Assembly (NCBI RefSeq): GCF_025717515.1
Contig: NZ_JAJIRN010000010.1
Coordinates: 186,001 to 250,000, forward strand
Source: Roseateles oligotrophus
GTDB lineage: Bacteria; Pseudomonadota; Gammaproteobacteria; Burkholderiales; Burkholderiaceae_C
Direction of reading: 5' to 3'
DNA: 64,000 nt
Shown: in pieces, positions 2,156 to 20,434 of the stretch
Numbering within the stretch: position 1 is the first letter of the stretch
How the letters are laid out: each line of letters starts with the position of its first letter
Program-made: the position numbers and the translations under genes
The notes under the pieces: generated by a model
Databases searched by the model: none
What the model was told of the DNA's origin: nothing
What the model saw: only the letters and a program-made list of their open reading frames with translations

Positions 2156-4000
2156 ATGCGATCGACCCTGATACGAGCCGCCACATACCTGATTGGCCTG
2201 CTCGGCTTGACCAGCCTGCCTTTGCTGGCCCAAGAAACGAACAGTACTTCCGAGACCAAGGTACTGCCGAAAGTTCTTCGTTACGCCTTCCGCGCCTCCG
2301 AGACCGGCTTCGATCCGGCACAGATCTCCGACAGTTATTCCAAGGCGGTGGCGGCCGGCATCTTCGATGCGCCGCTGGAGTTTGAATACCACCGCCGCCC
2401 GGCCAAGCTGCGCCCGAATACCTTGGTGGCCATGCCCGAGGTGTCGGCCGATTTCAAGACCCTGACCTTCGAGCTCAAGCCCGGCATCTTCTTCGGTGAC
2501 GACCCCGCCTTCGGCGGCAAGAAGCGCGAACTGGTCGCCGCCGATTACATCTACTCGATCAAGCGCCATTACGACCCGCAGTGGAAGAGCCCCAATCTCT
2601 ACCTGCTGGAGAACGTCAAGATTCTGGGCGCATCGGAGTTGCGCCGCGAGCTGATGGCGGCGAAGAAGCCGTTTGACTACGACCGCCCGTTGGAAGGCCT
2701 GCAAGTTCTGAGTCGCTATAAGTTCCAACTCAAACTCGGCGTCGGCGACCCGCGCTTCATCAACCAGTTTGCCGACGCGGGCTTCCTCGGCGCGGTGGCG
2801 CGCGAGGTGGTGGAGATGTATGGCGACAAGATCATGGAACACCCGGTCGGCACCAATGCATGGCGCCTGGGCGAATGGCGCCGCAGCTCGCAGATCGTGC
2901 TGGAGAAGAACCCCAATTTCCGCGAAGTTCGTTATGCCGAGAGCCCGCCCGCCGACAACCCGGCCCTGGCCGCTCAGGTCGCCATGCTGCAGGGCCGGCG
3001 CCTGCCGATGGTGGACCGCGTCGTGATCGCCATCATCGAGGAGCCGCAGCCGCGCTGGCTGTCCTTCCTGAATGGCGAAAAGGATGTGATCGAGGAGGTG
3101 CCGGCCGACTTCGCCACCATCGCGATGCCGAACAACAAGTTGGCACCGAATCTGGCCAAGCGCGGCATCCAGATGACCCGCTACCCGCGCGCCGATGTGG
3201 CCTTCACCTATTTCAATATGGAAGATCCGGTGGTGGGCGGCTACACGCCGGAAAAGATCGCGCTGCGCCGCGCAATCTCGCTGGGTTCCGACATCGACAA
3301 GCAAATCCGCCTGGCGCGCCGTGGCCAGGCCGTGCCTTCGAATGGCCCGATCGCGCCGGGCACCTTTGGCTTCGATGCCAATTTCAAATCCGAGATGGGC
3401 GAGTACAACCTGGCCAAGGCCAAGAGCCTGCTCGACCTCTACGGCTATGTCGACCAAGACGGCGACGGCTGGCGCGACCAGCCCGATGGCTCGGCGTTAA
3501 AGCTGGAATATGCGACCCAGCCCGACAGCACCAACCGCCAGCTTAATGAGCAATGGCAGCAGACCATGAATGGGCTGAAGATCCGCATCAAGTTCAAGAC
3601 CGCCAAATGGCCGGAAAACCTGAAGTCTGCCAACGCCGGCAAGCTGCAGATGTGGGGGGTGTCCTGGGTTGCCACCGCGCCGGACGGTGACACCTTCCTG
3701 GCGCTCGGTGACGGCGGCGCCAAGGGCAAGGCCAACAAGGCACGCTTCGACCTGCCGGCCTTCAATGCGCTGTACAACAAACAAAAAGCATTGCCCGATG
3801 GACCCGAGCGCGAGGCGGTGATGGCCGAGGCGCAAAAGCTCTTGGTGGCCTATATGCCTTACAAGATGGAGGTGCACCGCGTCTTCACCGACATGGCCCA
3901 ACCCTGGGTGATGGGCTACAACCGCAACGTTTTCGTGCGCGACTTCTGGAAGTATATTGATGTCGATCGGGACACCTTGGACCGATTGTCGAAGAACTAA
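2156..4000 (+). CDS. Family-5 peptide-type ABC substrate-binding protein, paralogue 1 of 7
   Basis: Periplasmic receptor of a peptide-type ABC importer (SBP_bac_5), 614 residues. A Sec signal peptide (MRSTLIRAATYLIGLLGL, cleavage near LLA|QE) precedes the family core: VLRYAFRASETGFDPAQISD, PEVSADFKTLTF, PVGTNAWRLGEWRRSSQIV and, near the end, QPWVMGYNRNVFVRDFW. Residues 433-441 carry a calcium-loop-like DxDGDGxxD. It shares FEY in the N-terminal lobe and an NPNFR motif with paralogue 2, so these two form one subgroup. It is the first of seven tandem paralogues and is divergent from the permease genes. No strong Shine-Dalgarno precedes the ATG. The ligand is unknown; peptides are likely by family. 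Confidence 0.92.
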   Translation: MRSTLIRAATYLIGLLGLTSLPLLAQETNSTSETKVLPKVLRYAFRASETGFDPAQISDSYSKAVAAGIFDAPLEFEYHRRPAKLRPNTLVAMPEVSADFKTLTFELKPGIFFGDDPAFGGKKRELVAADYIYSIKRHYDPQWKSPNLYLLENVKILGASELRRELMAAKKPFDYDRPLEGLQVLSRYKFQLKLGVGDPRFINQFADAGFLGAVAREVVEMYGDKIMEHPVGTNAWRLGEWRRSSQIVLEKNPNFREVRYAESPPADNPALAAQVAMLQGRRLPMVDRVVIAIIEEPQPRWLSFLNGEKDVIEEVPADFATIAMPNNKLAPNLAKRGIQMTRYPRADVAFTYFNMEDPVVGGYTPEKIALRRAISLGSDIDKQIRLARRGQAVPSNGPIAPGTFGFDANFKSEMGEYNLAKAKSLLDLYGYVDQDGDGWRDQPDGSALKLEYATQPDSTNRQLNEQWQQTMNGLKIRIKFKTAKWPENLKSANAGKLQMWGVSWVATAPDGDTFLALGDGGAKGKANKARFDLPAFNALYNKQKALPDGPEREAVMAEAQKLLVAYMPYKMEVHRVFTDMAQPWVMGYNRNVFVRDFWKYIDVDRDTLDRLSKN

Positions 4001-4047
4001 ACACAGGCCCGGGCTTCGCTTGCCGAGCCGGCGATCGGGAGCCAGGC

Positions 4048-5607
4048 GTGGGAATTCGGTTCAAGTTGTTGCTGACCTTTGTTCTGAGCTTTGGCCTGCT
4101 GGGGCTGATCAGCCTTGGCTTGCTGCAGCGCAGCCTGAATGCCAGTTACGCCACGATCGAACGCAACGAGCTGGCCTCGCATATGAGCCGCATCGTGCAG
4201 AGCATCGAGGCCGAGCTCGAACATCTGAACAGCCTGACGCGCGACTGGGCGGTCTGGACCGAGATGTACCGCCATGTCATGCAACCCGATGCCGCCTGGG
4301 AGTCCGACAACATCGGGCCACTGGCGCTGGACACGGCCGGTCTGGCGCTGGTGATGGTGTACGACCAACAAGGGCAATTGGTGTCATTCAGCAGCAGCGC
4401 CAAATCAGCCTCGCCCGCCAGCGGCCCGCCTCTGGCGCGCCTGCAATCCAGCCCCTATGCCGCCTTGGCCGGCGGCGCCAAGCTCGACCCCGGCTGCGGC
4501 TTGATGAGAAGCGAGGCCGGCCTGATGCTGACCTGTTTGGCCCGCATCAGCCGCAGCGACTCCAGCGGAGACTTCGCCGGCAACTTGATACTGGCAAGAA
4601 TGTTTGACGACGCGATGCTCACCAAGCTGAGGCATCAGACCCAGTTGGCCATCAAGCTGATAGCTCGCAGCGAAGCGACGCCGGGCATGGAATTCTGGCC
4701 GGACTTTCTGCCGGACAGCAAGCTGGGGCCGGGGAATGTCTGGCATACCCAAGAGCCCAAGCTCTACCATCTCGAGTTCCTCGCGCAGGATAGGCTCAAG
4801 CGCAACGTCGCCCTGCTGGGCGTTTCGGTCTCCCGCGATGTGCATGAGCAGGGCATCTTGGTCTTTCAGCAGGTGCGCCGCCAACTGATCTGGGCGGGCG
4901 CGTTCACGGCCAGCCTGCTGGCTCTGGCCGTTCACCTGCTACTGGTTCGGCGATTGCGCCGCTTCACCCGGCAGTTGGTCGAGTTGGCCGACGCGCAAAC
5001 CTGGAATACCCGCATCAAGGTCAAGGGCAAGGATGAACTCGGCCTCTTGTCGGGCCATGTCAATCACCTGCTTAGTCTGATCGAAACCCAGGTTCAGGCC
5101 TTGCAGCGCTTGAGCCTGACCGACGCCCTGACCGGCCTGAGCAACCGACGCGGCTTTGACGAACGGATCGCCCAGGAACTCGCGACCAAGAGCCGTGGTG
5201 AGCGCAAGCTGGCTCTGCTGACCATCGATGTGGACTGCTTCAAGCGCTACAACGACCGCTACGGCCACCCCGCCGGCGACAGGGCATTGGCAGCGGTGGC
5301 GCAGGTGCTTGGATCGGCGCGCGGCCGGGAGGGCGACATGGCGGCTCGCATCGGCGGCGAGGAATTTGCCCTGCTGCTGCCGGAGACCGATGCGGCGGGC
5401 GCCTTGGTGATGGCAGAGCGCATCCGCAGCCTGATGCACGAACTGGCTTTGCCGCATGAAGATTCGCCGATTGCGCCCATCCTCACCTTGAGCATAGGCA
5501 TTGCCATTGCGGCCGCCGACACGCCGTCGACCTTGATCGCCCGGGCCGACCAGGCGCTCTACCAAGCCAAGGAGCAGGGGCGAGACCGCGCCGTCCTGCT
5601 CGCTTGA
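4048..5607 (+). CDS. Membrane diguanylate cyclase with periplasmic CHASE4-like sensor, HAMP and GGDEF
   Basis: Makes cyclic di-GMP from two GTP. The GTG start at 4048 follows GGGAG at 4037-4041. The order is: an N-terminal helix (about residues 5-28), a periplasmic region of roughly 240 residues that looks like CHASE4 (ELASHMSRIVQSIEAEL, then LTRDWAVWTEMYRHV), a second helix near 280-300, a HAMP linker, and GGDEF. The active site GGEEF is at residues 436-440, and an intact inhibitory I-site RxxD (REGD) lies five residues before it, so activity with product inhibition is expected. It lies 47 bp after SBP paralogue 1 and before paralogue 2 on the same strand, which suggests co-regulation with peptide uptake. 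Confidence 0.93.
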   Translation: MGIRFKLLLTFVLSFGLLGLISLGLLQRSLNASYATIERNELASHMSRIVQSIEAELEHLNSLTRDWAVWTEMYRHVMQPDAAWESDNIGPLALDTAGLALVMVYDQQGQLVSFSSSAKSASPASGPPLARLQSSPYAALAGGAKLDPGCGLMRSEAGLMLTCLARISRSDSSGDFAGNLILARMFDDAMLTKLRHQTQLAIKLIARSEATPGMEFWPDFLPDSKLGPGNVWHTQEPKLYHLEFLAQDRLKRNVALLGVSVSRDVHEQGILVFQQVRRQLIWAGAFTASLLALAVHLLLVRRLRRFTRQLVELADAQTWNTRIKVKGKDELGLLSGHVNHLLSLIETQVQALQRLSLTDALTGLSNRRGFDERIAQELATKSRGERKLALLTIDVDCFKRYNDRYGHPAGDRALAAVAQVLGSARGREGDMAARIGGEEFALLLPETDAAGALVMAERIRSLMHELALPHEDSPIAPILTLSIGIAIAAADTPSTLIARADQALYQAKEQGRDRAVLLA

Positions 5608-5769
5608 TGCGCCCAGGGTCGAGCAAAGATCCCCGACCTGGGGTTCGACTGCATGGCGGCGAGGCAGTGCAGGCCGTAGACTCCGTACCTGCGTCTTGCT
5701 GTCAGCGATCTGAACGGCAAGACCTGTCCAAATTTCTGTCGCGCCGGGGCCAAAAGCCTGCAGGCGCGT

Positions 5770-5785
5770 TTGTTTGTTCAAACAA
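5770..5785. promoter_or_regulatory. Palindromic operator candidate upstream of SBP paralogue 2
   Basis: The 16-bp sequence TTGTTTGTTCAAACAA has perfect 7-bp arms around a central TT. It sits just 5' of the ribosome-binding site AAGGA (5784-5788) and of the preferred TTG start at 5798. It could be a repressor site controlling the downstream SBP run, or a small RNA hairpin overlapping the SD. No bound protein is known. Confidence 0.45.
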
Positions 5786-5797
5786 GGATGTGCGATC

Positions 5798-7639
5798 TTG
5801 CTGCGAGCCCGGATCAAAGCCCTGCTGCTGATATCTGCCGCGCTGGCCATGCTGCAGGCGGCGGGCTTGGCGCGTGCCGACGAGGCCGCCCAGTCGCAGT
5901 CTGGGGCCAAGCCCAAGGTGCTGCGCTACGCCTTTCGGATCGCCGAGACCGGCTTCGACCCGGCGCAGATCTCCGATCTCTATTCGCGCATCATTGCCGC
6001 CGGCATCTTTGAAGCGCCGCTGCAATTCGAGTACCTGGCCCGCCCGGTACGGCTGCGTGCGGCCACGGCCGACGCGCTGCCCGAGGTCTCGGCCGACTTC
6101 AAGACGCTGACCTTCACCATCAAGCCCGGTATCTACTTCAATGATGATCCGGCCTTCGAAGGCAAAAAGCGCGAACTCACCGCCGCCGACTATGTCTATT
6201 CGCTGAAACGCCATTTCGACCCGCGCTGGAAGAGCCCCAATCTCTATCTGTTCGAGAACGCCCGCATTCCCGGGCTGAACGAGTTGCGCCGCGAAGCCCT
6301 CAAGAACAAGACCGCATTTGATTACAAGCGCCCTGTCGCCGGACTGACTGCGCTGGATCGTTACCGCTTCCAGGTCCGCACCGAGGCCGGCGACCCTCGC
6401 TTCGTCAATCATTTTGCCGACCCCTCCACCATGGGTGCCGTCGCGCATGAGGTGGTCGAGCGCTATGGCGACAAGATCATGGACCATCCGGTCGGCACCG
6501 GGGCCTGGGCCTTGACCGAATGGCGGCGCAGCTCGCGCATGGTGTTGGAGAAGAACCCGAATTTCCGCGATCTGCGTTACGACGAGCAGCCGCCCGCCGA
6601 CAACGCCCGCCTGGTGGCGCAGGCGGCGCAGCTGCAGGGCCGCAAGCTGCCGATGCTGGACCGGGTCGAGATCGCCATCATCGAAGAGAACCAGCCGCGC
6701 TGGCTGTCGTTTTTGCAGCGCGAGGCCGATATGGTCGAAGAGGTGCCGGCCGAGTACGCGCCGATTGCCTTCCCGAACAACAAGCTGGCGCCCAATCTGG
6801 CCAAGATGGGCCTGCAAATGGTGCGTTATGCACGTGCAGACGTGGCGATCTCCTACTTCAATATGGAGGACCCGGTAGTCGGCGGCTACACGCCGAACAA
6901 GATTGCGCTGCGCCGCGCGATCGCGCTGGCCATCGATGTCGACAAGGAAATCCGCTTGCCAAGGCGCGGTCAGGCTGTCCCTGCGCAAGGCCCAATCAGC
7001 CCCGGCGTGTTTGGCTTCGAGCCGACCTTGAAAACGACCATGAGCGAACACGACATTGCTCGCGCCAAGGCCCTCCTTGATCTGTATGGCTATGTCGATG
7101 CCGATGGCGACGGCTGGCGCGATCAGCCGGACGGCAGCCCGCTGACGATCGAATACGCGACCGAGCAAGACGGCGAGAAGCGCGCGCTGGCCGAGCTGTG
7201 GCAAAAGGCAATGGATTCGATCAATGTGCGCATCAAGTTCCGCCACGCCAAATGGCCGGAGAACCTGAAGGCCTCTACCGCCGGCAAGCTGATGATGTGG
7301 GGTGTCGGCTGGAGCGCGGCCGCACCCGATGGCGACACCTTTTTGGCCTTGGGCTATGGGCCCAACAAGGGCCAGTCCAACAAGGCCCGCTTTGACCTGC
7401 CGGCCTACAACGCCTTGTACGAAGCCCAGAAAAAACTGCCCAATGGCCCCGAACGATTGGAGCTGATGACCGAAGCACAGAAGCTGCTCGTCGCCTATAT
7501 GCCGATCAAGCTGCATGTGCACCGCGTCTACACCGACATCGCCCAGCCCTGGGTATTGGGCTATGGGCGCAACACCTTTGTGCGCGACTTCTGGAAATAC
7601 ATCGACATCGACCCCGAGGTCTTGGACGCGACCAAATAG
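5798..7639 (+). CDS. Family-5 peptide-type ABC substrate-binding protein, paralogue 2 of 7
   Basis: Peptide-type periplasmic receptor, about 613 residues. I prefer the TTG at 5798, which gives the signal peptide MLRARIKALLLISAALAMLQ and has AAGGA 9 bp upstream; an in-frame TTG at 5774 is also open. The core carries VLRYAFRIAETGFDPAQISD, PVGTGAWALTEWRRSSRMV, IIEENQPRWLSF and the DADGDGWRD loop. The end resembles paralogue 1 (QPWVLGYGRNTFVRDFWKYI), more so than the later copies. It is separated from paralogue 1 by the diguanylate cyclase and from paralogue 3 by 47 bp. Product specificity is not readable, but the ligand-facing segments differ clearly from its neighbours. Confidence 0.9.
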   Translation: MLRARIKALLLISAALAMLQAAGLARADEAAQSQSGAKPKVLRYAFRIAETGFDPAQISDLYSRIIAAGIFEAPLQFEYLARPVRLRAATADALPEVSADFKTLTFTIKPGIYFNDDPAFEGKKRELTAADYVYSLKRHFDPRWKSPNLYLFENARIPGLNELRREALKNKTAFDYKRPVAGLTALDRYRFQVRTEAGDPRFVNHFADPSTMGAVAHEVVERYGDKIMDHPVGTGAWALTEWRRSSRMVLEKNPNFRDLRYDEQPPADNARLVAQAAQLQGRKLPMLDRVEIAIIEENQPRWLSFLQREADMVEEVPAEYAPIAFPNNKLAPNLAKMGLQMVRYARADVAISYFNMEDPVVGGYTPNKIALRRAIALAIDVDKEIRLPRRGQAVPAQGPISPGVFGFEPTLKTTMSEHDIARAKALLDLYGYVDADGDGWRDQPDGSPLTIEYATEQDGEKRALAELWQKAMDSINVRIKFRHAKWPENLKASTAGKLMMWGVGWSAAAPDGDTFLALGYGPNKGQSNKARFDLPAYNALYEAQKKLPNGPERLELMTEAQKLLVAYMPIKLHVHRVYTDIAQPWVLGYGRNTFVRDFWKYIDIDPEVLDATK

Positions 7640-7686
7640 ACAACCAAGCCATCCAAGCCCACCCAGCTTCTTGTTTCTTCCTTCCT

Positions 7687-9507
7687 ATGAACGCATATTT
7701 CTCCTTTCGTCGCCGAGCCTTGCTGCTGCTATGCCTGCTGAGCAGCGCAAGTCTCGCGGCGCCTGAAGCCGGTGACGCCAACCCCAAGGTCTTGCGCTAT
7801 GCCTTTCGCGTCGCCGAGACCGGCTTTGATCCGGCCAAGATCACCGACCTCTATTCGCGCATCATCACCTCGCATATCTTCGAGGGCCTCTACACCTATG
7901 ACCATCTGGCACGGCCGGCCAAGCTCAAGCCCTTGACGGCGGCCGCGCTGCCCGAGGTCAGCGCCGACTTCAAGACCTGGACGATCCGCATCCAACCCGG
8001 CATCTACTTTGCCGACGACCCGGCCTTCAAGGGCAAGCGCCGCGAGTTGACCGCCGCCGACTATGTCTATTCCTTCAAGCGCTTTGCCGACCCGCTGACC
8101 AATAGCCCGACCTGGGACGGGCTGGAGGAGAACCATCTGCTCGGTCTGAACGAATACCGGGCCGAGATCCAGAAGAGCAAGAAGCCCTTTGATTACGACA
8201 AAACTATCGAAGGCCTGCGCGCGCTGGATCGCTACACGCTGCAAATCAAACTCGGCAAATCCCGGCCGCGCTTTGACCAGAGCCTGGCCGACGGCAGCTT
8301 GCTCGGCGCGGTCGCGCGTGAGGTGATCGAGGCCTACCCGGAGCGCAGCACCGAGCACCCGGTCGGCACCGGGCCATTCAAGCTCGCCACTTGGCGGCGC
8401 AGCTCGCAAATCAATCTGGAGAAAAACCCCGACTATCGGGAGCGTTATTACGACGCAGAGCCCAACGCCGACGATGCCGAGGGTCAGGCCTTGCTGGCGA
8501 ACTTCAAGAGCCGGCGCATCCCGATGATTGACCGGGTCGAAATCTCCATCATCGAAGAAAACCAGCCGCGCTGGCTGTCCTTCCTGGATGGCCAATTTGA
8601 TCTGCTGGACCGCACGCCGGAAGACTTCATCAACCAGGCCATGCCGGGCGGCAAGCTGGCTCCCAACCTCGCCAAGATGGGCTTGCGCGCCTTTCGCGTC
8701 GTGACCTCGGATGTCTTGTTCACCGTCTTCAATCTGGAAGACCCGGTGATTGGCGGCTATACGCCGGAGCGCATCGCGCTGCGCCGCGCGATCTCGCTGG
8801 GCACCGACTCGGCGCGTGAAATCCGCATCGTGCGGCGCGGCCAGGCGATCAGCGCGCAGTCCATCATGCTGCCGCACACGACCGGCTATGACGCCAATTT
8901 CAAAAGCGAAAGTGGCGAATACGACCCTGCCAAGGCCAAGGCCTTGCTCGACCTGTACGGCTATATCGACCGCGACGGTGACGGCTTTCGCGAGCAGCCC
9001 GACGGCAGCCCGCTGGTGCTGGAAAGCCTGACCACGCCCGAGCAGTTCCAGCGCCAGATCGACGAAATCTGGCAAAAGGCGCAAGCCGCGATCGGCATCA
9101 AGGTGCAGTTCAAGACCGCCAAATGGCCGGAGAACCTCAAGTCCATGCGCGCCGGCAAGTTCCAGATCTGGTCCTTGGCCAGTTCGGCGTCGGCGCCGGA
9201 CGGGCAGGATGCGCTGGGCTTCTTCTACAGCGAGCGCATCGGCGGGCAGAACTACGCGCGCGTCAATTTGAAGGCCTTCGATGAGCTGTACGAGCGCACC
9301 AACGCCTTGCCCGATGGCCCGGAGCGCTTAGGCCTGTTCACCGAACTCAAGCGCCTGGGCGCGGCCTACGCGCCTTACCGCCCACGCGGCCATCGCATCA
9401 TTACCGACCTTGCCCATGCGCAACTGCTCGGCTATAGGCGGCCGCAGTTTTGGCTGAATTTTTGGGAATATGTGGATATCGACGAGAGCCGTCGCTTGAA
9501 CAAATGA
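7687..9507 (+). CDS. Family-5 peptide-type ABC substrate-binding protein, paralogue 3 of 7
   Basis: Periplasmic SBP_bac_5 receptor of 606 residues. The signal peptide MNAYFSFRRRALLLLCLLSS contains RRR before a short hydrophobic stretch, so Sec or Tat export is possible. The core motifs are VLRYAFRVAETGFDPAKITD, YSRIITSHIFEGLYTYD, PVGTGPFKLATWRRSSQIN and the calcium-like DRDGDGFRE loop. It belongs to the paralogue 3-6 subgroup (IFE-LY-YD, DYRERYYDAE). Its start is preceded by a pyrimidine-rich stretch with no recognisable SD. Its TGA overlaps the ATG of paralogue 4 (ATGA), starting a chain of coupled genes. Confidence 0.92.
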   Translation: MNAYFSFRRRALLLLCLLSSASLAAPEAGDANPKVLRYAFRVAETGFDPAKITDLYSRIITSHIFEGLYTYDHLARPAKLKPLTAAALPEVSADFKTWTIRIQPGIYFADDPAFKGKRRELTAADYVYSFKRFADPLTNSPTWDGLEENHLLGLNEYRAEIQKSKKPFDYDKTIEGLRALDRYTLQIKLGKSRPRFDQSLADGSLLGAVAREVIEAYPERSTEHPVGTGPFKLATWRRSSQINLEKNPDYRERYYDAEPNADDAEGQALLANFKSRRIPMIDRVEISIIEENQPRWLSFLDGQFDLLDRTPEDFINQAMPGGKLAPNLAKMGLRAFRVVTSDVLFTVFNLEDPVIGGYTPERIALRRAISLGTDSAREIRIVRRGQAISAQSIMLPHTTGYDANFKSESGEYDPAKAKALLDLYGYIDRDGDGFREQPDGSPLVLESLTTPEQFQRQIDEIWQKAQAAIGIKVQFKTAKWPENLKSMRAGKFQIWSLASSASAPDGQDALGFFYSERIGGQNYARVNLKAFDELYERTNALPDGPERLGLFTELKRLGAAYAPYRPRGHRIITDLAHAQLLGYRRPQFWLNFWEYVDIDESRRLNK

Positions 9508-11309
9508 AGAAGAAACTACTCAGCCTTTTATTCAGCGGCTTGCTGGCCTTGTCAGCGCAAGCCGAAACCGACGCGGTGCAGCCGAAAGTGCTGCGCTACG
9601 CGTTTCCGGTTGCCGAGACCAATTTTGATCCGAGCCAGATCAATGACCTCTATTCGCGCACCATCACCGGCGCGATCTTCGAAGCGCTATACCGTTACGA
9701 CCACCTGGCCCGGCCGGTGCAAATCAAGCCGCTGATCGCCGCTGCGATGCCGGAGGTTTCGCCCGACTCTCGCCAGTTCACGATCAAGATCCAGCCCGGC
9801 ATTTACTTTGCCGATGACCCCGCCTTCAAAGGTAAAAAGCGCGAGCTGACCGCGGCCGATTTCGTCTATATGTATAAACGCTTCGCCGACCCCGCGCTGA
9901 AAAGCCCCGGCTGGAGCAGCATGGAAGAAGCCGGCGTGATCGGGCTCTTGGCCTTGCGCAAGCAGGGCCTGGCGAACAAGAAGCCCTTCGATTACGACCA
10001 GGAAATTGAAGGTCTGCGTGCGCTCGACCGCTATACCTTGCAGATCAAGCTGGAGCAGTCGCGCCCGCGCTTGCTTGAAAAAATCCTCACCGGCAGCGAT
10101 TTGTACGGGCCCTTGGCACGCGAGGTGGTTGAACATTACGGCGCCAAGGTCGGCGAACATCCGGTCGGCACCGGACCGTTCAAGCTGGCGGCCTGGCGGC
10201 GCAGCTCGCAGATCGTGCTGGAGAAAAACCCCGATTATCGTGAGCGTTACTACGACGCCGAGGCGCTGCCCGGGGACGCCGAAGGATTGGCCTTGCAGTC
10301 GCGCTTCAAAGGCCGCCGCATCCCGATGATCGATAGGATCGAGGTCGCCATCATCGAGGAGGCGCAGCCGCGCTGGCTGTCTTTTCTGAACGGCGAAAAG
10401 GACTTTGCCGAGCGGGTGCCGGCCGAGTTCATCAGCCAGGCGATGCCCAATGGCCATGTCGCGCCCAATCTGGCCAAGAAAGGGATTCAAGGCTTTCGAA
10501 CCTTGGCGCCCGATGCGGCCATCACGGTCTACAACATGGAAGACCCGGTGATTGGCGGCATGGAGCCGGCCAAGATTGCGCTGCGTCGCGCGGTCGGTCT
10601 GGCCATCGATGTGCAGCGCGAGATTCGCTTGGCCCGGCGTGGCCAGGCGGTGCAGGCGCAGAGCCCGCTGGTGCCACACACGACCGGCTATGACGCCGAA
10701 TTCAAGTCTGAAATCGGCGACTACGATCTGGCTCGTGCCAAGGCCTTGCTTGATCTCTATGGCTATGTCGACCAAGACGGTGACGGCTGGCGCGATCAAC
10801 CCGACGGCAGCCCCTTGATCTTGGTTCGCAAGACCCAGCCGGACAGCGTCAACCGCCAACTTGATGAGTTGTGGCAAAAGAATTTGACTGCCCTCGGCAT
10901 CAAGATCGAAATCCAGACCGCCAAATGGCCGGAGAACATGAAGAGCGTGCGCGGCGGCAAATTCATGATCTGGGGCGTTGGCTCCTCGGCCTCCGATCCC
11001 GATGGACAGGGCTCTTTGCAGCGTTTGTACGGCCCATCGATCGGTGGACAGAACCTGGCGCGGTTTCGGCTGCCGGCCTATGACAAGCTCTACGACCAAC
11101 TGTCCATGCTGCCCGATGGCCCCGAGCGCGAGGCACTTTTCCTGGAGGCCAAACGCCTCGCGACCGTCTACAGCCCTTACAAACAACATGTGCACCGCAT
11201 CATCACCGACCTCGCCCAGCCCTGGCTGATCGGCTATAGACGCGCGCTGTTCTGGCAGGACTGGTGGCAGTATGTCGACATTGACGAGAGCAAGAGGCCA
11301 GGGCGATGA
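9504..11309 (+). CDS. Family-5 peptide-type ABC substrate-binding protein, paralogue 4 of 7
   Basis: Periplasmic receptor of 601 residues. The ATG at 9504 overlaps the previous stop as ATGA and gives a clean signal peptide (MKKKLLSLLFSGLLALSAQA). An in-frame start 54 bp further upstream would lie inside paralogue 3 and lose that signal. Motifs are VLRYAFPVAETNFDPSQIND, PVGTGPFKLAAWRRSSQIV and a DQDGDGWRD loop. The C-terminus matches paralogue 5 over about 28 identical residues beginning DLAQPWLIGYRR, so 4 and 5 look like the most recent duplication in the array. It is translationally coupled at both ends. Confidence 0.93.
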   Translation: MKKKLLSLLFSGLLALSAQAETDAVQPKVLRYAFPVAETNFDPSQINDLYSRTITGAIFEALYRYDHLARPVQIKPLIAAAMPEVSPDSRQFTIKIQPGIYFADDPAFKGKKRELTAADFVYMYKRFADPALKSPGWSSMEEAGVIGLLALRKQGLANKKPFDYDQEIEGLRALDRYTLQIKLEQSRPRLLEKILTGSDLYGPLAREVVEHYGAKVGEHPVGTGPFKLAAWRRSSQIVLEKNPDYRERYYDAEALPGDAEGLALQSRFKGRRIPMIDRIEVAIIEEAQPRWLSFLNGEKDFAERVPAEFISQAMPNGHVAPNLAKKGIQGFRTLAPDAAITVYNMEDPVIGGMEPAKIALRRAVGLAIDVQREIRLARRGQAVQAQSPLVPHTTGYDAEFKSEIGDYDLARAKALLDLYGYVDQDGDGWRDQPDGSPLILVRKTQPDSVNRQLDELWQKNLTALGIKIEIQTAKWPENMKSVRGGKFMIWGVGSSASDPDGQGSLQRLYGPSIGGQNLARFRLPAYDKLYDQLSMLPDGPEREALFLEAKRLATVYSPYKQHVHRIITDLAQPWLIGYRRALFWQDWWQYVDIDESKRPGR

Positions 11310-13102
11310 AATCAGCTCGCTTGGTTTTAGCGCTTTGCTTGAGCTTGCAGGCGGCGCTGGCTCCGGCAGCAGAGCCCGCCAAGGTGCTGCGTTATGCCTT
11401 CCCGATCGCCGAGACCGGCTTTGACCCGGCGCAAATCGACGACATCTATTCCCGCACCATCACGGCGGCCATCTTCGAGTCGCTGTATCGCTATGACCAT
11501 CTGGCCAGGCCGGTCAAGGTGTTGCCGCTGGTGGCCGCAGCAATGCCGGAGGTGGCCAGCGATTTCAAGACCTTCACGGTGCGCATCAAGCCCGGCATTT
11601 ACTTCGCCGCCGACCCCGCCTTCAAAGACAAGAAGCGTGAGTTGACCGCCGCTGATTTCGTCTACAGCTACAAGCGTTTTGCCGACCCGGCCATCAAAAG
11701 CCCTGGCTGGAGCACTTTCGAGGAGGCTGGCCTCTTAGGGTTGGCGGCGCAACGCAACTTGGCGCTGAAGGGCAAGAAGCCGTTTGATTACGAGCATGAG
11801 GTCGAGGGCCTGCGCGCGCTCGACCGCTACACGATCCAATTCAAGGTCGAGCAGGCCAGGCCGCGCCTGGTCGAGATGATCATGACCGGCAACGACATCG
11901 TTGGCGCGGTCGCGCGCGAGGTGGTCGAGGCCTATGGTGACAAATTGAATGAACACCCGGTCGGCACCGGCCCGTTCAAATTGGGCGTTTGGCGGCGCAG
12001 CTCCAAAATCGAGCTGTTGCGCAACCCCGACTACCGCGAGCGTTTTTACGATGCCGAGCCTGGCGCCGAAGACAAAGAGGCGCAGGCTTTGCTGGCACAT
12101 TTCAAGGGCCGGCGTCTGCCGATGCTGGACCGCGTCGAGGTCGACATCATCGAAGAGGTGCAGCCGCGCTGGTTGGCTTTTCTGAACGCCGAACATGATT
12201 TATTGGAGCGCGTGCCGCCGGACTTCATCAGCCAGGCAATGCCCAATGGCAAGCTGGCACCCAATCTGGCCAAACGGGGCGTGCAGGCCTTTCGCACCAT
12301 CGGGCCGGATGCTTCCTTGACCGTCTTCAATATGGAAGACCCTGTCATCGGCGGCATGGCGCCCGAGAAGATCGCCTTGCGCCGCGCCATCAGCTTGGGG
12401 ATAGATGTACCGCGCGAGATCAACCTGGTGCGCCGAGGCCAGGCGGTGCCCGCACAAAGCCAGGTGGTGCCACATACCACCGGCTACAGGGCCGAATTCA
12501 AGTCCGAGATGGGCGATTACGACCCGGTGCGTGCCAAGGCCTTGCTCGATCTCTATGGCTATATCGACCGCGACGGCGATGGCTGGCGCGAGCAGCCCGA
12601 TGGTCAGAAATTGGTGCTGGTGCGCAATACCGAGCCGACCAATGCGAGTCGGCAGATGGATGAATTGCTGTTGAAAAACATGAGCGCCATCGGCCTCAAG
12701 ATCGAGTTCAAGACCGCCAAATGGCCGGAGAACATGAAGAGCGCCCGCGGCGGCAAATACATGATCTGGTTTTTCGGCTCCAGCGCCTCCGACCCTGACG
12801 GCCTGGGCGCTTTGCAGCGTCTGTACGGCCCCGCCATCGACGGGCAAAACCTGTCCCGCTTCAAGAGCCCCGAGTTCGACCGGCTCTATGACCAGATGCA
12901 AGGCATGGCCGACGGCCCCGAACGCGAGGCCTTGCTCTTGCAGGCCAAGCGTCTGGCCGTCTCCTATATGCCCAGCAAGGCCCATGTCCACCGTATCTAT
13001 ACAGACCTGGCACAGCCCTGGCTGATTGGCTACCGGCGTGCGCTGTTCTGGCAGGACTGGTGGCAGTATGTGGACATTGACGAGAGTAAAAAGCCGAAGT
13101 GA
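11306..13102 (+). CDS. Family-5 peptide-type ABC substrate-binding protein, paralogue 5 of 7
   Basis: Periplasmic receptor of 598 residues, starting at an ATG that overlaps the stop of paralogue 4. It has the signal peptide MKSARLVLALCLSLQAALA and the core VLRYAFPIAETGFDPAQIDD, PVGTGPFKLGVWRRSSKIE, VVPHTTGY and DRDGDGWRE. It is the closest relative of paralogue 4 by eye. The two differ in the middle lobe (FKVEQARPRLVEMIMTGNDI against the equivalent stretch of paralogue 4), the sort of difference expected if the binding pocket has diverged. Its stop overlaps the GTG start of paralogue 6. Confidence 0.93.
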   Translation: MKSARLVLALCLSLQAALAPAAEPAKVLRYAFPIAETGFDPAQIDDIYSRTITAAIFESLYRYDHLARPVKVLPLVAAAMPEVASDFKTFTVRIKPGIYFAADPAFKDKKRELTAADFVYSYKRFADPAIKSPGWSTFEEAGLLGLAAQRNLALKGKKPFDYEHEVEGLRALDRYTIQFKVEQARPRLVEMIMTGNDIVGAVAREVVEAYGDKLNEHPVGTGPFKLGVWRRSSKIELLRNPDYRERFYDAEPGAEDKEAQALLAHFKGRRLPMLDRVEVDIIEEVQPRWLAFLNAEHDLLERVPPDFISQAMPNGKLAPNLAKRGVQAFRTIGPDASLTVFNMEDPVIGGMAPEKIALRRAISLGIDVPREINLVRRGQAVPAQSQVVPHTTGYRAEFKSEMGDYDPVRAKALLDLYGYIDRDGDGWREQPDGQKLVLVRNTEPTNASRQMDELLLKNMSAIGLKIEFKTAKWPENMKSARGGKYMIWFFGSSASDPDGLGALQRLYGPAIDGQNLSRFKSPEFDRLYDQMQGMADGPEREALLLQAKRLAVSYMPSKAHVHRIYTDLAQPWLIGYRRALFWQDWWQYVDIDESKKPK

Positions 13103-14907
13103 AGACAATAGTCCATTTCTTACTCCAAGCCGCACTGCTGATGATTTGCTTGCCGCTGCAAGCAAGCCAAAGCGCCGCGCCTCCCAAGGTACTCAAATAC
13201 GCTTTCCTGGTGGCCGAGACCGGCTTCGACCCGGCCCAGACCAGTGACACCTATTCGCAGACCGTCACCGCGCATATCTTCGAGGCGCTCTATGCCTATG
13301 ACTATCTGGCCGAGCCGGCCAAGGTCAGGCCGCTGACCGCAGCCGCCATGCCTGAGGTGTCGGCCGACTTCAAGACATGGACGGTCAAAATCAAGCCGGG
13401 CATCTTTTTCACCGCTGACCCCGCCTTCATGAGCAAGCCGCGCGAGTTGGTCGCGGCCGACTATGTCTACACCTTCAAGCGCTTTGCCGACCCGGCAACC
13501 AAGAGCCCGACCTGGAATGCGATCGAAGAGATGGGGCTGGTGGGCTTGAAGGAGTTGCGCGAACAAGCGCTCAAGTCGAAAAAGCCGTTTGATTACGGGC
13601 ACGAGATCGAAGGGCTGCGTGCGCTCGACCGCTACACGATTCAGTTCAAACTCAAGCACAGCCGGCCACGCTTTGTGTATGGCCTGGCGCAAAGTGCCCG
13701 TTCCGGTGCGGTGGCGCGCGAGGTGATGGAGGCCTACGCCGGCAACACCATGGCGCACCCGGTCGGCACCGGCCCTTTTGTGCTGAAGGACTGGCGCCGC
13801 AGCTCGCGCATCGTGCTGGAGAAGAACCCCGCTTACCGCGAGCGTTACTACGAGGCCGAGCCAGCAGCGGAAGATGCCGAGGGTCAGGCCTTGCTGGCGC
13901 GCTTCAAGGGCCAGCGCATCCCGATGATTGACCGGGTCGAGATCGCCATCATCGAAGAATCGCAGCCGCGTTGGCTGAGCTTTGTCGGCGGCGAGCATGA
14001 CTTTCTCGACCGCGTGCCGCCCGACTTTGTCAACGTTGCGCTGCCCAAGGGCCGGGTCGCGCCCAATCTGGCCAAGCAGGGCATTCAGCTTTTCCGCGTG
14101 ATGGGCGCCGAGAGCGCCTTCACTTTTTTCAATATGGAGGACAAGACGCTTGGCGGCTATGGCGCCGACAAGGTCGCGCTGCGCCGCGCGATCTCTCTGG
14201 CCACCGACATCAAGCGCGAGATCAGCAGCGTACGGCGCGGCCAAGCGGTGCCGGCGCAGTCGATGATAGTGCCGCACACCTCGGGTTTTGATGCAAGCTA
14301 CAAGAGCACGAACAGCGATTTCGACCTGCCGCGCGCGCTGGCCCTGCTCGACCTTTACGGCTATGTGGACAAGGACGGTGATGGCTGGCGCGATATGCCC
14401 GATGGTTCGCCCTTGGTGATCGAGATAGCGAATCAACCGGATGCCTTGTCACGTCAATATGACGAGTTATGGCAGCGCAACCTCAACAGCATGAAGATCC
14501 GCAGCAGATTCGTCCACGGCCAATGGCCGGAGCAATTGAAGCAGGCGCGCGCCGGCAAGCTGATGCTGTGGACGCTGGCCGACACCGCCAACTCGCCCGA
14601 TGGCATCGACCAGATGCTGCGTTTCTACAGCCCGGCCATCGGGGCGCGCAATTACGCGCGCTTCCGGTCGGCCGAGTTCGACGCGATCTACGATCAATTG
14701 CAGATCTTGCCCGATGGCCCAGAGCGTGAGGCCTTGTTCCTGCAAGCCAAACGCATTCAAGCGGCCATCGTGCCGGAAAAAACCACTGTGCACCGCATCG
14801 TCAATGACATGGCTCAGCCCTGGTTGATCGGTTATCGCCGGCCGCTGTTCCGTTACGAGTTCTGGCATTTTGTGGACATTGACGAGAGTCTGAGGAAGCA
14901 GCGATGA
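13099..14907 (+). CDS. Family-5 peptide-type ABC substrate-binding protein, paralogue 6 of 7
   Basis: Periplasmic receptor of 602 residues. It starts at a GTG overlapping the upstream TGA (GTGA), with signal peptide MKTIVHFLLQAALLMICLPL. The core carries VLKYAFLVAETGFDPAQTSD, PVGTGPFVLKDWRRSSRIV and a DKDGDGWRD loop. Compared with the 3-5 subgroup it has replaced the usual AKWPENLK segment with GQWPEQLK and lacks the usual QNLARF motif near the end (it has ARNYARF). It is coupled to paralogue 7 by ATGA. The substrate is unknown. Confidence 0.92.
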   Translation: MKTIVHFLLQAALLMICLPLQASQSAAPPKVLKYAFLVAETGFDPAQTSDTYSQTVTAHIFEALYAYDYLAEPAKVRPLTAAAMPEVSADFKTWTVKIKPGIFFTADPAFMSKPRELVAADYVYTFKRFADPATKSPTWNAIEEMGLVGLKELREQALKSKKPFDYGHEIEGLRALDRYTIQFKLKHSRPRFVYGLAQSARSGAVAREVMEAYAGNTMAHPVGTGPFVLKDWRRSSRIVLEKNPAYRERYYEAEPAAEDAEGQALLARFKGQRIPMIDRVEIAIIEESQPRWLSFVGGEHDFLDRVPPDFVNVALPKGRVAPNLAKQGIQLFRVMGAESAFTFFNMEDKTLGGYGADKVALRRAISLATDIKREISSVRRGQAVPAQSMIVPHTSGFDASYKSTNSDFDLPRALALLDLYGYVDKDGDGWRDMPDGSPLVIEIANQPDALSRQYDELWQRNLNSMKIRSRFVHGQWPEQLKQARAGKLMLWTLADTANSPDGIDQMLRFYSPAIGARNYARFRSAEFDAIYDQLQILPDGPEREALFLQAKRIQAAIVPEKTTVHRIVNDMAQPWLIGYRRPLFRYEFWHFVDIDESLRKQR

Positions 14908-16712
14908 GAGCCAAGCAACGGCGTGCCTTCTTGACCCGGGCTGCGGCCATGGCCGGGGCTTGTTGGCTGCACGCGCCGGCGCAAGCCGCCACTGCTGGCC
15001 GCAAGAAAGTTCTGCGGACCGCCTTTGCAACGGCCGAGGTCGGGTTTGATTTGCCGCAGGTATCGGACCAGACCTCGGTCGTGGTGGCGTCGAACATTTT
15101 TGAGCCGCTGCTGAGCTATGACTATCTGGCCCGGCCGGCGGTACTGATACCGTTGACCGCTGCCGGCCTGCCCGAGGTTTCAGCCGACTTCAAGCATTTC
15201 GTCTTCACGCTTCGGCCCGGCATTTTCTTCGCTGACGATGGCGCCTTCAAGGGCAGGAAGCGCGAACTGGTCGCCGAAGACTATGTCTACAGCATCAAAC
15301 GCTATTACGACCCGCGCATCAAGACCGAGCATCTCTATCAGTTCGAGACCGCCAAGGTTCTGGGCCTCTCGGAGCTGCGCAACGAGGCGCTGAAGAGCAA
15401 ACAACCGTTCAACTACGATAAGCCGGCCGCCGGTTTGCGCGCGCTCGATCGCTACCGCTTCGAGGTCCGCCTGGCCGAGCCGGACCCGCGCTTTCCGCAT
15501 CTCTTTGCCAACGCCAACTACAGCGCCGCAGTGGCCCGCGAAGTGATCGAGGCCTATGGCGATGACATCTCGGCCCACCCAGTGGGAACGGGGCCGTTTC
15601 GGCTCAAAAGCTGGCGGCGCAGTTCGCAGATCGTGCTGGAACGCAATCCGAACTTTCGCGAACAGGTTTTCGAGAGCCTGGGCGCGGCGGCAGGCCATAC
15701 TCAAGCCGAGGAAGTGGGGCGTTACCTTACCGGCAAGAAGCTGCCACTGCTGGACGAAGTGCACATCAGCATCATCACCGAAAGCCAGCCGCGCTGGTTG
15801 GCGTTTGCCGGCGGCGACCTCGATCTGGTGGAGATGCCCACCGCAGTCGCGCGCCTGGCCGTGCCGAACGGCCGGCTGGCACCGAACCTGAAAAAGCAGG
15901 GCGTGCAAGTCTTCCAGTCGCATGGCTCCGACATCACCTTCAGCTACTTCAATCTGGAGGATGCGCAAGTCGGCGGCTACTCGCCCGAACGAGTGGCATT
16001 GCGGCGCGCCATCGTGCTGGCCTATGACAACGCCGAAGAAACGCGGCTTGTCTACCAGGGTCAAGCCTTGCCTGCGCAGTCCATGCTGCCGTCGCTGATC
16101 TATGGCCATGAAGCGGATTTGCGCAGCGAAGCGGGCCAGCCCGATCTGGCGCGCGCCCAGGCACTGCTGGACCTGTATGGCTATGACAAGCGCGATGCCG
16201 AGGGCTACCGCCTGCACCCGGATGGCAGCGCCTTGAGGCTGAGGCGCGCCGGCGGCGAAACCGCGCGCGAACGCCAAATTCAGGAGCTTTGGAAAAAGCG
16301 CATGGACGCGGTCGGCCTGCGCATGGAGTTCGAGACCGCCACCTTCGGCGAGCTGATCAAAAAGGCCTTGGCCGGGCAGCTGATGATCTGGGGCTATGTG
16401 TGGGATCTGGGCTCACCCGACGGCGACTTTTTGCTCGGCATGGGCTATGGGCCGAACGCCGGCCAGTCCAACGACGCGCGCTTCCAGCTGGCCGCTTTTG
16501 ACCGCTTGTACGAGCGTCAGCGCTTGCTGCCCGATGGCCCCGAGCGTCTGGCCTTGATGCACCAAGCCACCCGCTTGATGTTGGCCTATCTGCCCTACCA
16601 TCCGCACAACTATCCGATCCGGATTGATATGAGCAGCGCCCGGGTGCGCGGCTTTTTGCGCCACCCGTTCACGCGTGACCGCTGGCGCTATTTGGACATG
16701 GACGAAAAATGA
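14904..16712 (+). CDS. Family-5 peptide-type ABC substrate-binding protein, paralogue 7 of 7, Tat-type signal
   Basis: Periplasmic receptor of 602 residues and the most divergent of the array. The N-terminus MRAKQRRAFLTRAAAMAGA has the twin-arginine motif RRAFLT, so export folded through Tat is likely, unlike its Sec-type neighbours. It keeps VGTGPFRLKSWRRSSQIV, SQPRWLAF and PDGPERL. The calcium-loop-like segment is degraded (DKRDAEGYR in place of DxDGDGWR), and the C-terminal membrane-proximal motif is HPFTRDRWRYLDMDE. Its ATG overlaps the stop of paralogue 6 and its TGA overlaps the ATG of the GNAT gene. The Tat signal plus loss of the loop suggests a different folding or ligand requirement. 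Confidence 0.9.
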   Translation: MRAKQRRAFLTRAAAMAGACWLHAPAQAATAGRKKVLRTAFATAEVGFDLPQVSDQTSVVVASNIFEPLLSYDYLARPAVLIPLTAAGLPEVSADFKHFVFTLRPGIFFADDGAFKGRKRELVAEDYVYSIKRYYDPRIKTEHLYQFETAKVLGLSELRNEALKSKQPFNYDKPAAGLRALDRYRFEVRLAEPDPRFPHLFANANYSAAVAREVIEAYGDDISAHPVGTGPFRLKSWRRSSQIVLERNPNFREQVFESLGAAAGHTQAEEVGRYLTGKKLPLLDEVHISIITESQPRWLAFAGGDLDLVEMPTAVARLAVPNGRLAPNLKKQGVQVFQSHGSDITFSYFNLEDAQVGGYSPERVALRRAIVLAYDNAEETRLVYQGQALPAQSMLPSLIYGHEADLRSEAGQPDLARAQALLDLYGYDKRDAEGYRLHPDGSALRLRRAGGETARERQIQELWKKRMDAVGLRMEFETATFGELIKKALAGQLMIWGYVWDLGSPDGDFLLGMGYGPNAGQSNDARFQLAAFDRLYERQRLLPDGPERLALMHQATRLMLAYLPYHPHNYPIRIDMSSARVRGFLRHPFTRDRWRYLDMDEK

Positions 16713-20398: not shown

Positions 20399-20434
20399 TA
20401 TCTGCCTTGGTCTTATCAAGTTTTCGGCCTCTGC

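Follow-up and report, generated by a model that had tools for sequence, protein, structure and literature searches.

The window, that is the whole 64-kb stretch of Roseateles oligotrophus DNA analysed here, carries an array of seven SBP_bac_5 receptor genes (S1-S7) next to a divergent importer that is complete, comprising permeases B and C and a fused double ATPase (Table 1). On balance, though not firmly, we favour a multi-receptor ABC importer in which S1-S7, differing in ligand preference, would all work with this one divergent importer, and in which the cargo would have shifted away from ordinary peptides. The most unusual features of the locus, overlooked in the preliminary description of this DNA, are, as read from alignments, a docking Asp that is missing in the receptors and a scoop-loop Lys that is missing in the permease.

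All seven receptor genes lie on the plus strand and none has an internal stop. Reading of the ORFs confirmed what had been described earlier, namely seven SBP_bac_5 genes in the same direction, six in a row, with ATGA/GTGA overlaps. The uninterrupted run is S2-S7, and S3-S7 together with the GNAT gene are chained by 4-base overlaps (ATGA for S3/S4, S4/S5, S6/S7 and S7/GNAT, GTGA for S5/S6). Protein identity to S1 was 68% for S2, 53% for both S3 and S4, 51% for S5, 52% for S6 and 49% for S7. The identical C-terminal run of S4 and S5, taken earlier as a sign of serial duplication, is real (about 30 residues in the alignment), but it is no evidence of recent duplication: third-position identity was 0.67 in the tail vs 0.62 when the codons of every residue shared by the two proteins were counted. 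The tail thus looks like conservation at the protein level and not the trace of a recent copy, and gene conversion was unsupported by the same figures. A scan for sigma-70-like promoters found 0 sites, the presumed control region included, vs 3.7 expected in shuffles. Terminator-like sites numbered 27 vs 14.8 expected, the majority of them within genes. Neither Rfam models nor a tRNA search had a match in the window.

S1-S7 belong to the SBP_bac_5 / cluster C solute-binding proteins. All seven matched PF00496 above the gathering score (E 2e-53 to 1e-62), and the AlphaFold2 models of two of the seven, S4 (pLDDT 94.1) and S7 (pLDDT 91.4), showed the cluster C fold and matched DppA/OppA-type structures with a TM to target of 0.82-0.87 for the two best per model. 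Three of the seven receptors (S1, S3 and S7) were scanned with NCBIfam and stayed under the cut-offs of the DppA equivalog (64-79 bits vs 1005), the OppA equivalog (41-73 bits vs 947) and GsiB (30.5-51.4 bits vs 594); the YejA model was absent among the NCBIfam matches. The importer parts were likewise under the cut-offs for GsiA (571.8 vs 1077 bits), GsiC (199.9 vs 463), GsiD (141.1 vs 484), YejB (135.5 vs 445), YejE (104 vs 439) and YejF (546 vs 834), and so were both the Opp4C (203 bits) and Opp3C (190 bits) matches of permease C. By E-value, the best NCBIfam match of the fused ATPase was GsiA, to which it is 47% identical (43% to YejF). The oppBC-type pair had been described as the only transporter genes in view. 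The divergent pair stands, but it is not the full set, since the permease C gene runs 142 bases past the left edge of the window and the ATPase gene lies just outside it.

Table 1. Features of the receptor array and its importer (window coordinates; negative numbers lie left of the window)
Feature	Coordinates	Strand	Basis
Double-ATPase ORF, 588 aa	-1847 to -81, left of window	-	directly after C gene
Permease C, OppC/DppC type	1..910, ORF -142..910	-	NCBIfam Opp4C 203 bits, Opp3C 190 bits
Permease B, OppB/GsiC type	907..1845	-	PF00528 6e-36; 35% to GsiC
Intergenic region, divergent importer genes / receptor array, presumed control region	1846..2155	.	
Receptor S1, SBP_bac_5, clade I	2156..4000	+	PF00496, alignment, tree
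CHASE4-HAMP-GGDEF protein, predicted membrane diguanylate cyclase, within array	4048..5607	+	domain search
Receptor S2, SBP_bac_5, clade I	5774..7639	+	PF00496, alignment, tree
Receptor S3, SBP_bac_5, clade II	7687..9507	+	PF00496, alignment, tree
Receptor S4, SBP_bac_5, clade II	9504..11309	+	PF00496, tree, AlphaFold2 model, ATGA overlap
Receptor S5, SBP_bac_5, clade II	11306..13102	+	PF00496, tree
Receptor S6, SBP_bac_5, clade II, GTG start, GTGA overlap	13099..14907	+	PF00496, tree
Receptor S7, SBP_bac_5, clade III, leader with twin-arginine-like RRAFL	14904..16712	+	PF00496, tree, AlphaFold2 model
GNAT acetyltransferase, ATGA overlap with S7	16709..17239	+	ORF reading, comparison with other arrays

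We found 89 related array loci (86 distinct), and the array with its divergent importer was present in records titled Roseateles, Paucibacter, Pelomonas, Rubrivivax, Mitsuaria, Rhizobacter and others. Permease B was divergent from the receptors in all 84 array loci where it was readable, and B, C and the ATPase were all present in the sequence of 72/89. One receptor-order grammar described 88 of the 89 loci (the last receptor being truncated in 7 of those 88), while receptor copy number among complete arrays ranged from 1 to 7. In a tree of 269 of the 288 receptors found, with truncated ones and exact duplicates left out, the subgroups S1-S2, S3-S6 and S7 of the preliminary description corresponded to clades I, II and III, respectively. 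The sole close orthologue of S5 in the tree came from genome G003, placed beside the S4 group. Growth of the array by serial duplication, as proposed earlier, is too simple, because clades I-III are common to several genera in a fixed order, with later copies arising inside I and II. In a phylum-wide sample, 7/299 genomes (the source genome among the 299) matched at E<=1e-100, all from the same order; copy counts in this sample are lower bounds, with at most 4 candidates scored per genome. Among the papers listed by searches of an open-access library, none showed the array or its receptor family. A GNAT gene also lies 3' of the arrays in G003 (82% identity) and G005 (81%). As a side observation, a loose RR-x-phi-phi leader pattern was seen in 25/31 receptors of clade III, 17/93 of clade I and 27/123 of clade II, and the strict RRxF pattern in 7/31, 2/93 and 4/123, respectively. 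Tat export as a hallmark of clade III was not adopted and is a mere lead, since the loose pattern also occurs in I and II and the strict one in only 7/31.

Judged by alignment with OppA, paralogues differ at ligand-contact positions more than orthologues of equal distance. At the 12 columns aligned with OppA contacts, which were transferred by sequence alone at 21-24% identity, identity was 0.889 within the S1-S7 orthologue sets and 0.268 between sets, as compared to 0.874 and 0.557 at the other columns; the share of 20,000 random 12-column sets as low between orthologue sets was 5e-5. At an overall identity of 0.55-0.60, orthologues shared 0.38-0.45 of the contact positions, and same-array paralogues of different clades 0.25. 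Strict specificity-determining columns showed no enrichment in the contact windows (2 seen vs 0.8 expected, p 0.19). Neither of the outcomes named beforehand as speaking against the earlier model appeared: the pockets are not identical at contact-aligned positions, and the array spans several genera. The earlier proposal of receptors of differing specificity beside one channel is backed by the recurrent array and by this divergence. As in multi-receptor peptide ABC importers, several paralogous receptors are genetically linked to one permease set. Taken together, the array, its divergent importer and the contact-position divergence suggest that one channel probably takes cargo from several receptors that differ in specificity, as is known for the DppA set of Pseudomonas and the OppA set of Borrelia.

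The docking Asp (Asp419 of mature OppA, Asp436 of full-length DppA) binds the alpha-amino group of the ligand. E. coli DppA and OppA carry D at this position in the same kind of alignment, whereas the residues found there in S1-S7 are T, A, S, S, S, N and G, Asp being absent from all seven. S7 was at one point taken for an Asp-bearing receptor, but when it was aligned with DppA, OppA and same-strand relatives its Asp lay two positions off and the docking residue was Gly. The docking Asp was missing in 242/261 receptors of the array clades, and was present in 6/94 of clade I, 12/124 of clade II, 0/31 of clade III, 0/8 of clade IIIb and 1/4 of clade IV. In E. coli, R383 and D436 of DppA are described as gripping the peptide and meeting E41 and R42 of DppB (PMC12136057). 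The scoop loop of our permease B reads GDPAEILGGLNAS, with Leu-Asn at the place of Glu41-Arg42, and the receptor alignment is gapped at the position of DppA Arg383, the C-terminal anchor. The scoop-loop Lys was replaced by Leu, Met or Gln in 88/88 divergent loci, of which 18 (17/85 without duplicates) nevertheless had one Asp receptor. The 26 same-strand operons all retained the Lys, together with one or more Asp receptors. Eight operons of family f23 with three receptors each showed Asp in the receptor adjoining B (8/8), no Asp in the first receptor (8/8) and Lys in the permease. The per-locus Asp/Lys counts take in full-length receptors and loci with a readable permease B, and leave out 14 loci of a 40-locus set, L114, L115 and five array loci; in those 14, 6/17 full receptors had Asp. 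On the tree, Asp loss traced mainly to a single event, basal to a clade of 283 sequences (support 0.991), with 11 inferred regains. Beyond the array clade, Asp was also lost in L157 and in 6 orphan receptors that group together, thus the docking residue can be lost independently. The loss of Asp and that of Lys each trace back to roughly a single event, so that their association is unreplicated by independent lineages. A contact of the Lys with the docking Asp is an assumption, as in the alignment the Lys falls on Glu41 rather than Arg42 of DppB from E. coli, a species whose GsiC carries Pro at this place.

Several receptors per peptide permease are already known in P. aeruginosa and Borrelia, so that calling the array an undescribed system was too strong. 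In P. aeruginosa, paralogous receptors DppA1-A5 with differing substrate profiles are reported to serve one ABC importer, DppBCDF, with DppA1-4 adjoining the permease genes and DppA5 encoded elsewhere (PMC4206461, PMC12728205). All five are described as keeping the Gly-Asp-Asn docking motif (PMC12728205), the Asp of which is gone from S1-S7, and the ATPases are encoded by separate genes there but fused here. Borrelia burgdorferi OppA1-OppA5, as described in PMC5736914, are also duplicated receptors, three in chromosomal tandem, with a shared ATPase pair; unlike in the array, all five have a docking acid (Asp in four, Glu in one), two of them are plasmid-borne, and there are two permease pairs. 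Streptococcus pneumoniae AmiA, AliA and AliB are described as several oligopeptide receptors for one Ami permease, with a proposed role in environmental sensing; this Gram-positive system is likened to the array by description. Its receptor genes are not known to lie in one array. E. coli YejABEF and GsiABCD share the fused double ATPase, and YejA and GsiB lack the docking Asp; unlike the array, each has a single receptor, to which the array receptors are 16-22% identical. Also close are same-strand operons of other Burkholderiales families (e.g. L108, L129 and L143), with the same receptor family and B-C-fused ATPase order. They differ in having 1-3 receptors, encoded on the same strand as B, and in keeping the scoop-loop Lys and the docking Asp of one receptor or more; some have an M3 oligopeptidase gene alongside. 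Three of their receptors (L107, L108 and L116) were 26-48% identical to array receptors.

Both Asp and Lys are gone here and kept in the same-strand relatives, which suggests that the cargo is probably other than ordinary free peptides. In the mechanism we propose, seven periplasmic receptors would alternate on one importer, giving a broader cargo range without extra channels. Their origin would be a branch, already without Asp, of a receptor family of Burkholderiales. The present lineage would have lost its Asp-bearing receptor, while the Asp-less receptors, now on the opposite strand, multiplied and the scoop-loop Lys changed to Leu. The cargo would probably be N-blocked, cyclic, longer or non-peptide compounds, and not short peptides gripped by a free N-terminus. 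Only tentatively do we extend this to a retooled peptide importer, with an Asp-less receptor recruited by an ancestral peptide permease, the peptide receptor lost, the permease gate facing the presumed place of the docking Asp changed and an ordered array formed in which each position might have its own non-classical ligand.

An ordinary multi-receptor peptide importer, which we regard as rather unlikely, would hold peptides along the chain, maybe long ones or with laxity in size, Asp and Lys being dispensable. The top structure matches of S4 and S7 are mainly peptide receptors (H. pylori DppA, MppA, OppA and DppA). Peptide binding without N-terminal docking is described for YejA, which holds an undecapeptide in its own mode with signs of extension at both ends (PMC10924461), and for L. 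lactis OppA, whose hydrophobic pocket takes the central part of the peptide (as told in PMC5736914). DppA5 is reported to have the docking Asp and yet to leave the di- and tripeptides tested unbound (PMC12728205). The M3 oligopeptidase gene of some same-strand operons also favours peptides, but this type was found in 0/18 array or divergent-locus genomes searched (best match in the source genome 33% identical), a weak objection as it is likewise absent from 14/21 same-strand genomes searched. Against this reading, the published multi-receptor permeases compared, as PMC12728205 and PMC5736914 present them, keep a docking acid in every receptor.

It is highly improbable that loaded receptors, instead of serving transport, signal via membrane receptors such as the CHASE4-GGDEF protein. 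Stimulation of transmembrane receptors by SBPs is a generally known phenomenon (PMC9602780), and a CHASE4-HAMP-GGDEF gene does lie within the array, between S1 and S2; however, it occurs in 2/89 arrays (G003 being the other, 65% identity), vs an importer in 84/84 loci with a readable permease B, leaving little support for the periplasmic sensors suggested earlier. Least probable of all, in our judgement, are duplicates without different ligands, retained through drift or dose. The variation from 1 to 7 copies and the restriction of the close S5 orthologue to G003 would suit such redundancy, but all seven frames are intact, the order of clades I, II and III is kept across genera, and contact-aligned positions diverge between paralogues above expectation.

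Use of one ABC permease by multiple receptors, and escape from an ancestral ligand, have mostly been studied protein by protein. Here, genomes offer a series, from one-receptor operons with Asp and Lys, through mixed three-receptor operons, to arrays mostly without either, so that whether the receptor pocket and the scoop loop of the permease changed together becomes directly testable by a few swaps. For ligand mapping, the arrays also provide as many as seven pockets built on a single scaffold, and the label 'oligopeptide-binding protein' may be incomplete or wrong for their receptors. If the importer has indeed been retooled, as many as seven classes of cargo would share one channel as their port, be they N-blocked, cyclic, modified or non-peptide.

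The receptor genes S1 to S7 (numbered 5' to 3') all have intact frames, and the products of S2-S7 are 49-68% identical to S1. A CHASE4-HAMP-GGDEF gene follows S1 after 47 bases and precedes S2 by 166 bases, and S3 follows S2 after another 47. S3 through S7 are joined by four 4-base overlaps (ATGA, ATGA, GTGA and ATGA in turn), which bears out the preliminary description of five receptors chained in this manner. Among the 89 array loci compared, a CHASE4-HAMP-GGDEF gene was found at the matching place only in genome G003 (locus L097; 65% identity), and the GNAT acetyltransferase was found also in G003 (82%) and G005 (81%). The divergent oppBC-type pair, earlier regarded as the only transporter genes in view, is indeed there, but the importer is complete, since permease B, permease C and a fused double-ATPase ORF just outside the window are all present divergently. 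Judged by their sequences, the ORFs beyond the ATPase are presumably recA and recX. Several models for the ATPases of peptide, nickel and opine importers have cut-offs that this ATPase exceeds; as several importer types match and the scores of its two domains add up, these model names do not fix the substrate. A wax ester synthase/diacylglycerol acyltransferase gene and/or a lipase-like gene, adjoining each other after the array here, also lies near the array in several relatives.

Features of the array region (window coordinates; negative values lie to the left of the window)
Feature	Coordinates	Strand	Remarks
Double-ATPase ORF, 588 aa	-1847 to -81		Outside window, after permease C; true start perhaps further in
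Permease C	extends to -142		Divergent from array
Permease B	907-1845		Divergent from array; overlaps permease C
Seven SBP_bac_5 receptor genes, S1-S7	2156-16712	+	Array
CHASE4-HAMP-GGDEF gene	4048-5607		Within array, between S1 and S2
Leader of S7	14904-15000		Twin-arginine-like
GNAT acetyltransferase	16709-17239		Fifth 4-base overlap (ATGA), with S7
Wax ester synthase/diacylglycerol acyltransferase and lipase-like genes	18863-21301		After array

A search for the same array elsewhere, as the preliminary description had advised, revealed that it recurs across genera. A genome scan gave at least 79 loci (best 80 matches); among the matches listed, most titles belonged to the Roseateles-Rubrivivax neighbourhood, and some matches were metagenome assemblies under other titles, for example Methylotenera, Rhodoferax or Bordetella, or Betaproteobacteria only. 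Members were present in all 17 other genomes searched from the window's genus (2-8 matches apiece, E<=1e-60), in 64 of 300 genomes drawn from the order Burkholderiales (E<=1e-80) and in 7 of 299 drawn from the phylum (E<=1e-100), all from the same order, the window's genome being included in both draws. The array set comprised 89 loci (L018-L105 and the window), or 86 distinct ones, as three regions occurred twice; among twenty further stretches added, five carry additional receptors from the genome to which the window belongs. Permease B was divergent in all 84 array loci whose stretch includes it, and B, C and ATPase all lay within the stretch in 72 of the 89. Four of the five array loci without B had less than 1.3 kb of upstream sequence, and L095 lacked B across 8.4 kb; the distance from B to the first receptor was about 2-8 kb in L036, L043, L084 and L088. 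Array size was counted in the 62 loci that include B and extend more than 2.5 kb past the last receptor, L025 and L100 covering a single region; there was one receptor in 4 loci, two in 17, three in 21, four in 12, five in 6, six in 1 and seven in the window; L097 and L098 of the same genus, outside this count, also have seven.

The receptor tree, built from 269 distinct full-length sequences and with low support at some deep nodes, gave clades I (94 sequences; S1, S2), II (124; S3-S6), III (31; S7), IIIb (8) and IV (4); one sequence stayed unplaced and 7 served as outgroup. In clade letters, the order (IIIb)-I(-I)-(IV)-II(0 to 4)-(III) fits 88 of the 89 arrays, seven of these with a truncated last receptor; the script matched 87, and the misfit of L057, which reads I-II-truncated, was a renaming artefact. 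The lone misfit is L038, whose last receptor is the unplaced sequence. Growth by serial duplication, proposed earlier, holds in so far as the tree places the origin of extra copies within clades I and II, but the array cannot be read as a series of recent copies, because clades I, II and III are common to several genera and keep their places. A close orthologue of S5 was found only in L097. Two genomes carry a clade II receptor with Asp at the docking position (L114 in G004, L115 in G009), and no importer gene was found in the 10 kb stretch of either.

Two residues of E. coli DppA, R383 and D436, bind the dipeptide ends through salt bridges, reversal of both charges abolishes binding, and in the assembled importer scoop-loop residues E41 and R42 of DppB touch this pair (accessible text of PMC12136057). 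The Asp that grips the peptide N-terminus (docking Asp; D436 of DppA) has been described as a hallmark of oligopeptide receptors in Gram-negative bacteria (excerpt of PMC5736914). The residues of S1-S7 at this position are T, A, S, S, S, N and G, respectively. Asp was found in 6/94 members of clade I, 12/124 of II, 0/31 of III, 0/8 of IIIb and 1/4 of IV (19/261 in total), and Glu in three members of clade II. The docking Asp is likewise absent from GsiB, NikA and YejA of E. coli. Parsimony on 334 sequences placed one main loss at the base of a 283-sequence clade (support 0.991). The window's genome encodes 13 SBP_bac_5 proteins, seven in the array and six elsewhere, and five of these six lack the Asp. 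Two such genes lie in tandem at L109 (C1, about 291500-294400), with W-G-V-x-T and no Asp at the docking site.

We compared the permeases of the array with those of related operons. Forty more loci were drawn from the order, two of them in the window's family; 14 had no permease B in the stretch, and the remaining 26 were compared together with four earlier loci (L106, L107, L108 and L116). In 26 of these 30, one to three receptors, B, C and mostly the ATPase lie on one strand; the other four are divergent, two of them (L126, L127; family f10) with one receptor. The residue aligned with DppB E41 is Lys in all 26 same-strand operons, each with at least one Asp-bearing receptor. In the 88 divergent loci (84 arrays and the four divergent loci) it is Leu in 82, Met in 4 and Gln in 2; an Asp-bearing full-length receptor is absent from 70 of these loci. 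Since the scoop-loop pair is Glu-Arg in E. coli DppB and Pro-Glu in GsiC, the Lys is a trait of this family.

Pairing of the scoop-loop Lys with the docking Asp is an assumption on our part. The observed change in the permease is as expected if its gate no longer meets a docking Asp, but it amounts to a single event and could have another cause. Strict coupling is spoken against by 18 of the 88 divergent loci (17/85 without duplicates), which have one Asp-bearing receptor despite a Lys-less permease; on the tree these receptors are regains, among 11 gains in total, mostly in single sequences. The eight three-receptor operons of family f23, with a Lys-bearing permease, look like an intermediate state: Asp is present in the receptor adjoining B in 8/8 and absent from the first in 8/8, and the middle one has Asp in five and Val in three. 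As the 88 Lys-less permeases share a clade of 96 (support 0.994) with the eight f23 permeases, Lys was probably lost once, after the split from f23.

Several same-strand operons carry an M3 peptidase gene, either between receptor and B or directly after the ATPase. The gene of L142 (7877-9649) is an M3 peptidase (PF01432 at 2e-102); by coordinates, the operons of G043, G165, G054, G029 and G104 have an M3 gene alongside, in G140 one adjoins the receptor (the part of the locus covered there), and in G166, G255 and G044 one follows the ATPase. In a search of 40 genomes (21 same-strand, 18 array/divergent-locus and G095, whose stretch includes no permease), this type was present in 7/21 same-strand genomes (48-100% identity to the query) and 4/18 array/divergent-locus genomes (G001, G008, G011 and G268; 42-44%), and none of the 18 had a copy beside the array. 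The best relative in the window's genome is 33% identical. The M3 oligopeptidase genes of L142, L143, L147, L106 and L140 are placed between the receptor and permease genes, and four of these five seem by eye to encode a signal peptide, which points to peptide trimming outside the cytoplasm ahead of import. The gene would fit a peptide importer as the parent system, and may, tentatively, be a lost partner.

AlphaFold2 models, from alignments of proteins of the window and loci L018-L096 only, had pLDDT 94.1 for S4 (97 sequences) and 91.4 for S7 (56 sequences). Both matched first H. pylori DppA with peptide and second a Mesorhizobium receptor with aminoserine, followed by glutathione- and peptide-binding proteins; the modelled fold does not identify the ligand. 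The leaders of S1-S6 look ordinary by eye. A twin-arginine-like motif is commoner in clade III leaders (25/31 by a loose pattern, 7/31 by a strict one) than in I and II, and the last receptor may leave the cytoplasm already folded.

Ligand-facing residues, whose comparison had also been advised, were compared by sequence alignment. The OppA contact list in the accessible text of PMC9967938 has 13 residues, 11 of whose letters match E. coli OppA, and 12 columns were usable after transfer by alignment. In orthologue sets of S1-S7 (window and up to six relatives; n=2 for S5), identity in these columns was 0.889 within sets and 0.268 between sets, as against 0.874 and 0.557 outside the contact windows. 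Among 20,000 random 12-column sets, a fraction of 5e-5 was as divergent between sets, and none was also as conserved within. To control for overall divergence, pairs at overall identity 0.55-0.60 were compared: the share of contact positions in common was 0.38 for clade I orthologues (64 pairs) and 0.45 for clade III orthologues (169 pairs), against 0.25 for paralogues from different clades within one array (81 pairs) and 0.31 for II/II pairs (6 pairs), and neighbouring bins trended likewise; this divergence is support rather than proof, because the pairs are non-independent and the OppA alignment is at 21-24% identity. A stricter count of specificity-determining columns gave no enrichment near contacts (2 columns observed against 0.8 expected, p 0.19).

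Several receptors per peptide permease are already known, as for DppA of P. aeruginosa (PMC4206461, PMC12728205) and OppA of Borrelia (PMC5736914), and MppA uses the Opp or Dpp permease (PMC6022919), according to the accessible parts of these reports. By its anatomy, with parts, linkage, order and divergence directly observed, the array is of this multi-receptor kind. All five Pseudomonas DppA proteins are described with a Gly-Asp-Asn motif, yet none of the di- and tripeptides tested bound to DppA5 (accessible text of PMC12728205), and all five Borrelia receptors with a docking Asp or Glu (excerpt of PMC5736914), whereas S1-S7 have neither. By the docking-Asp test the array receptors fall outside classical OppA/DppA. 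None of the array parts scanned (S1, S3 and S7 among the receptors) reached the curated scores of the tested DppA, OppA, Yej and Gsi parts, and a search of the open-access literature found no account of the array. We file it as a novel variant within the known multi-receptor permease type. The receptors would be exported, S7 with its twin-arginine-like leader, and each would close on its own ligand, different for different receptors; all seven would then dock in turn on the single B-C-ATPase importer, whose cargo we infer to have shifted away from free peptides, towards ligands that present no free N-terminus in the usual position.
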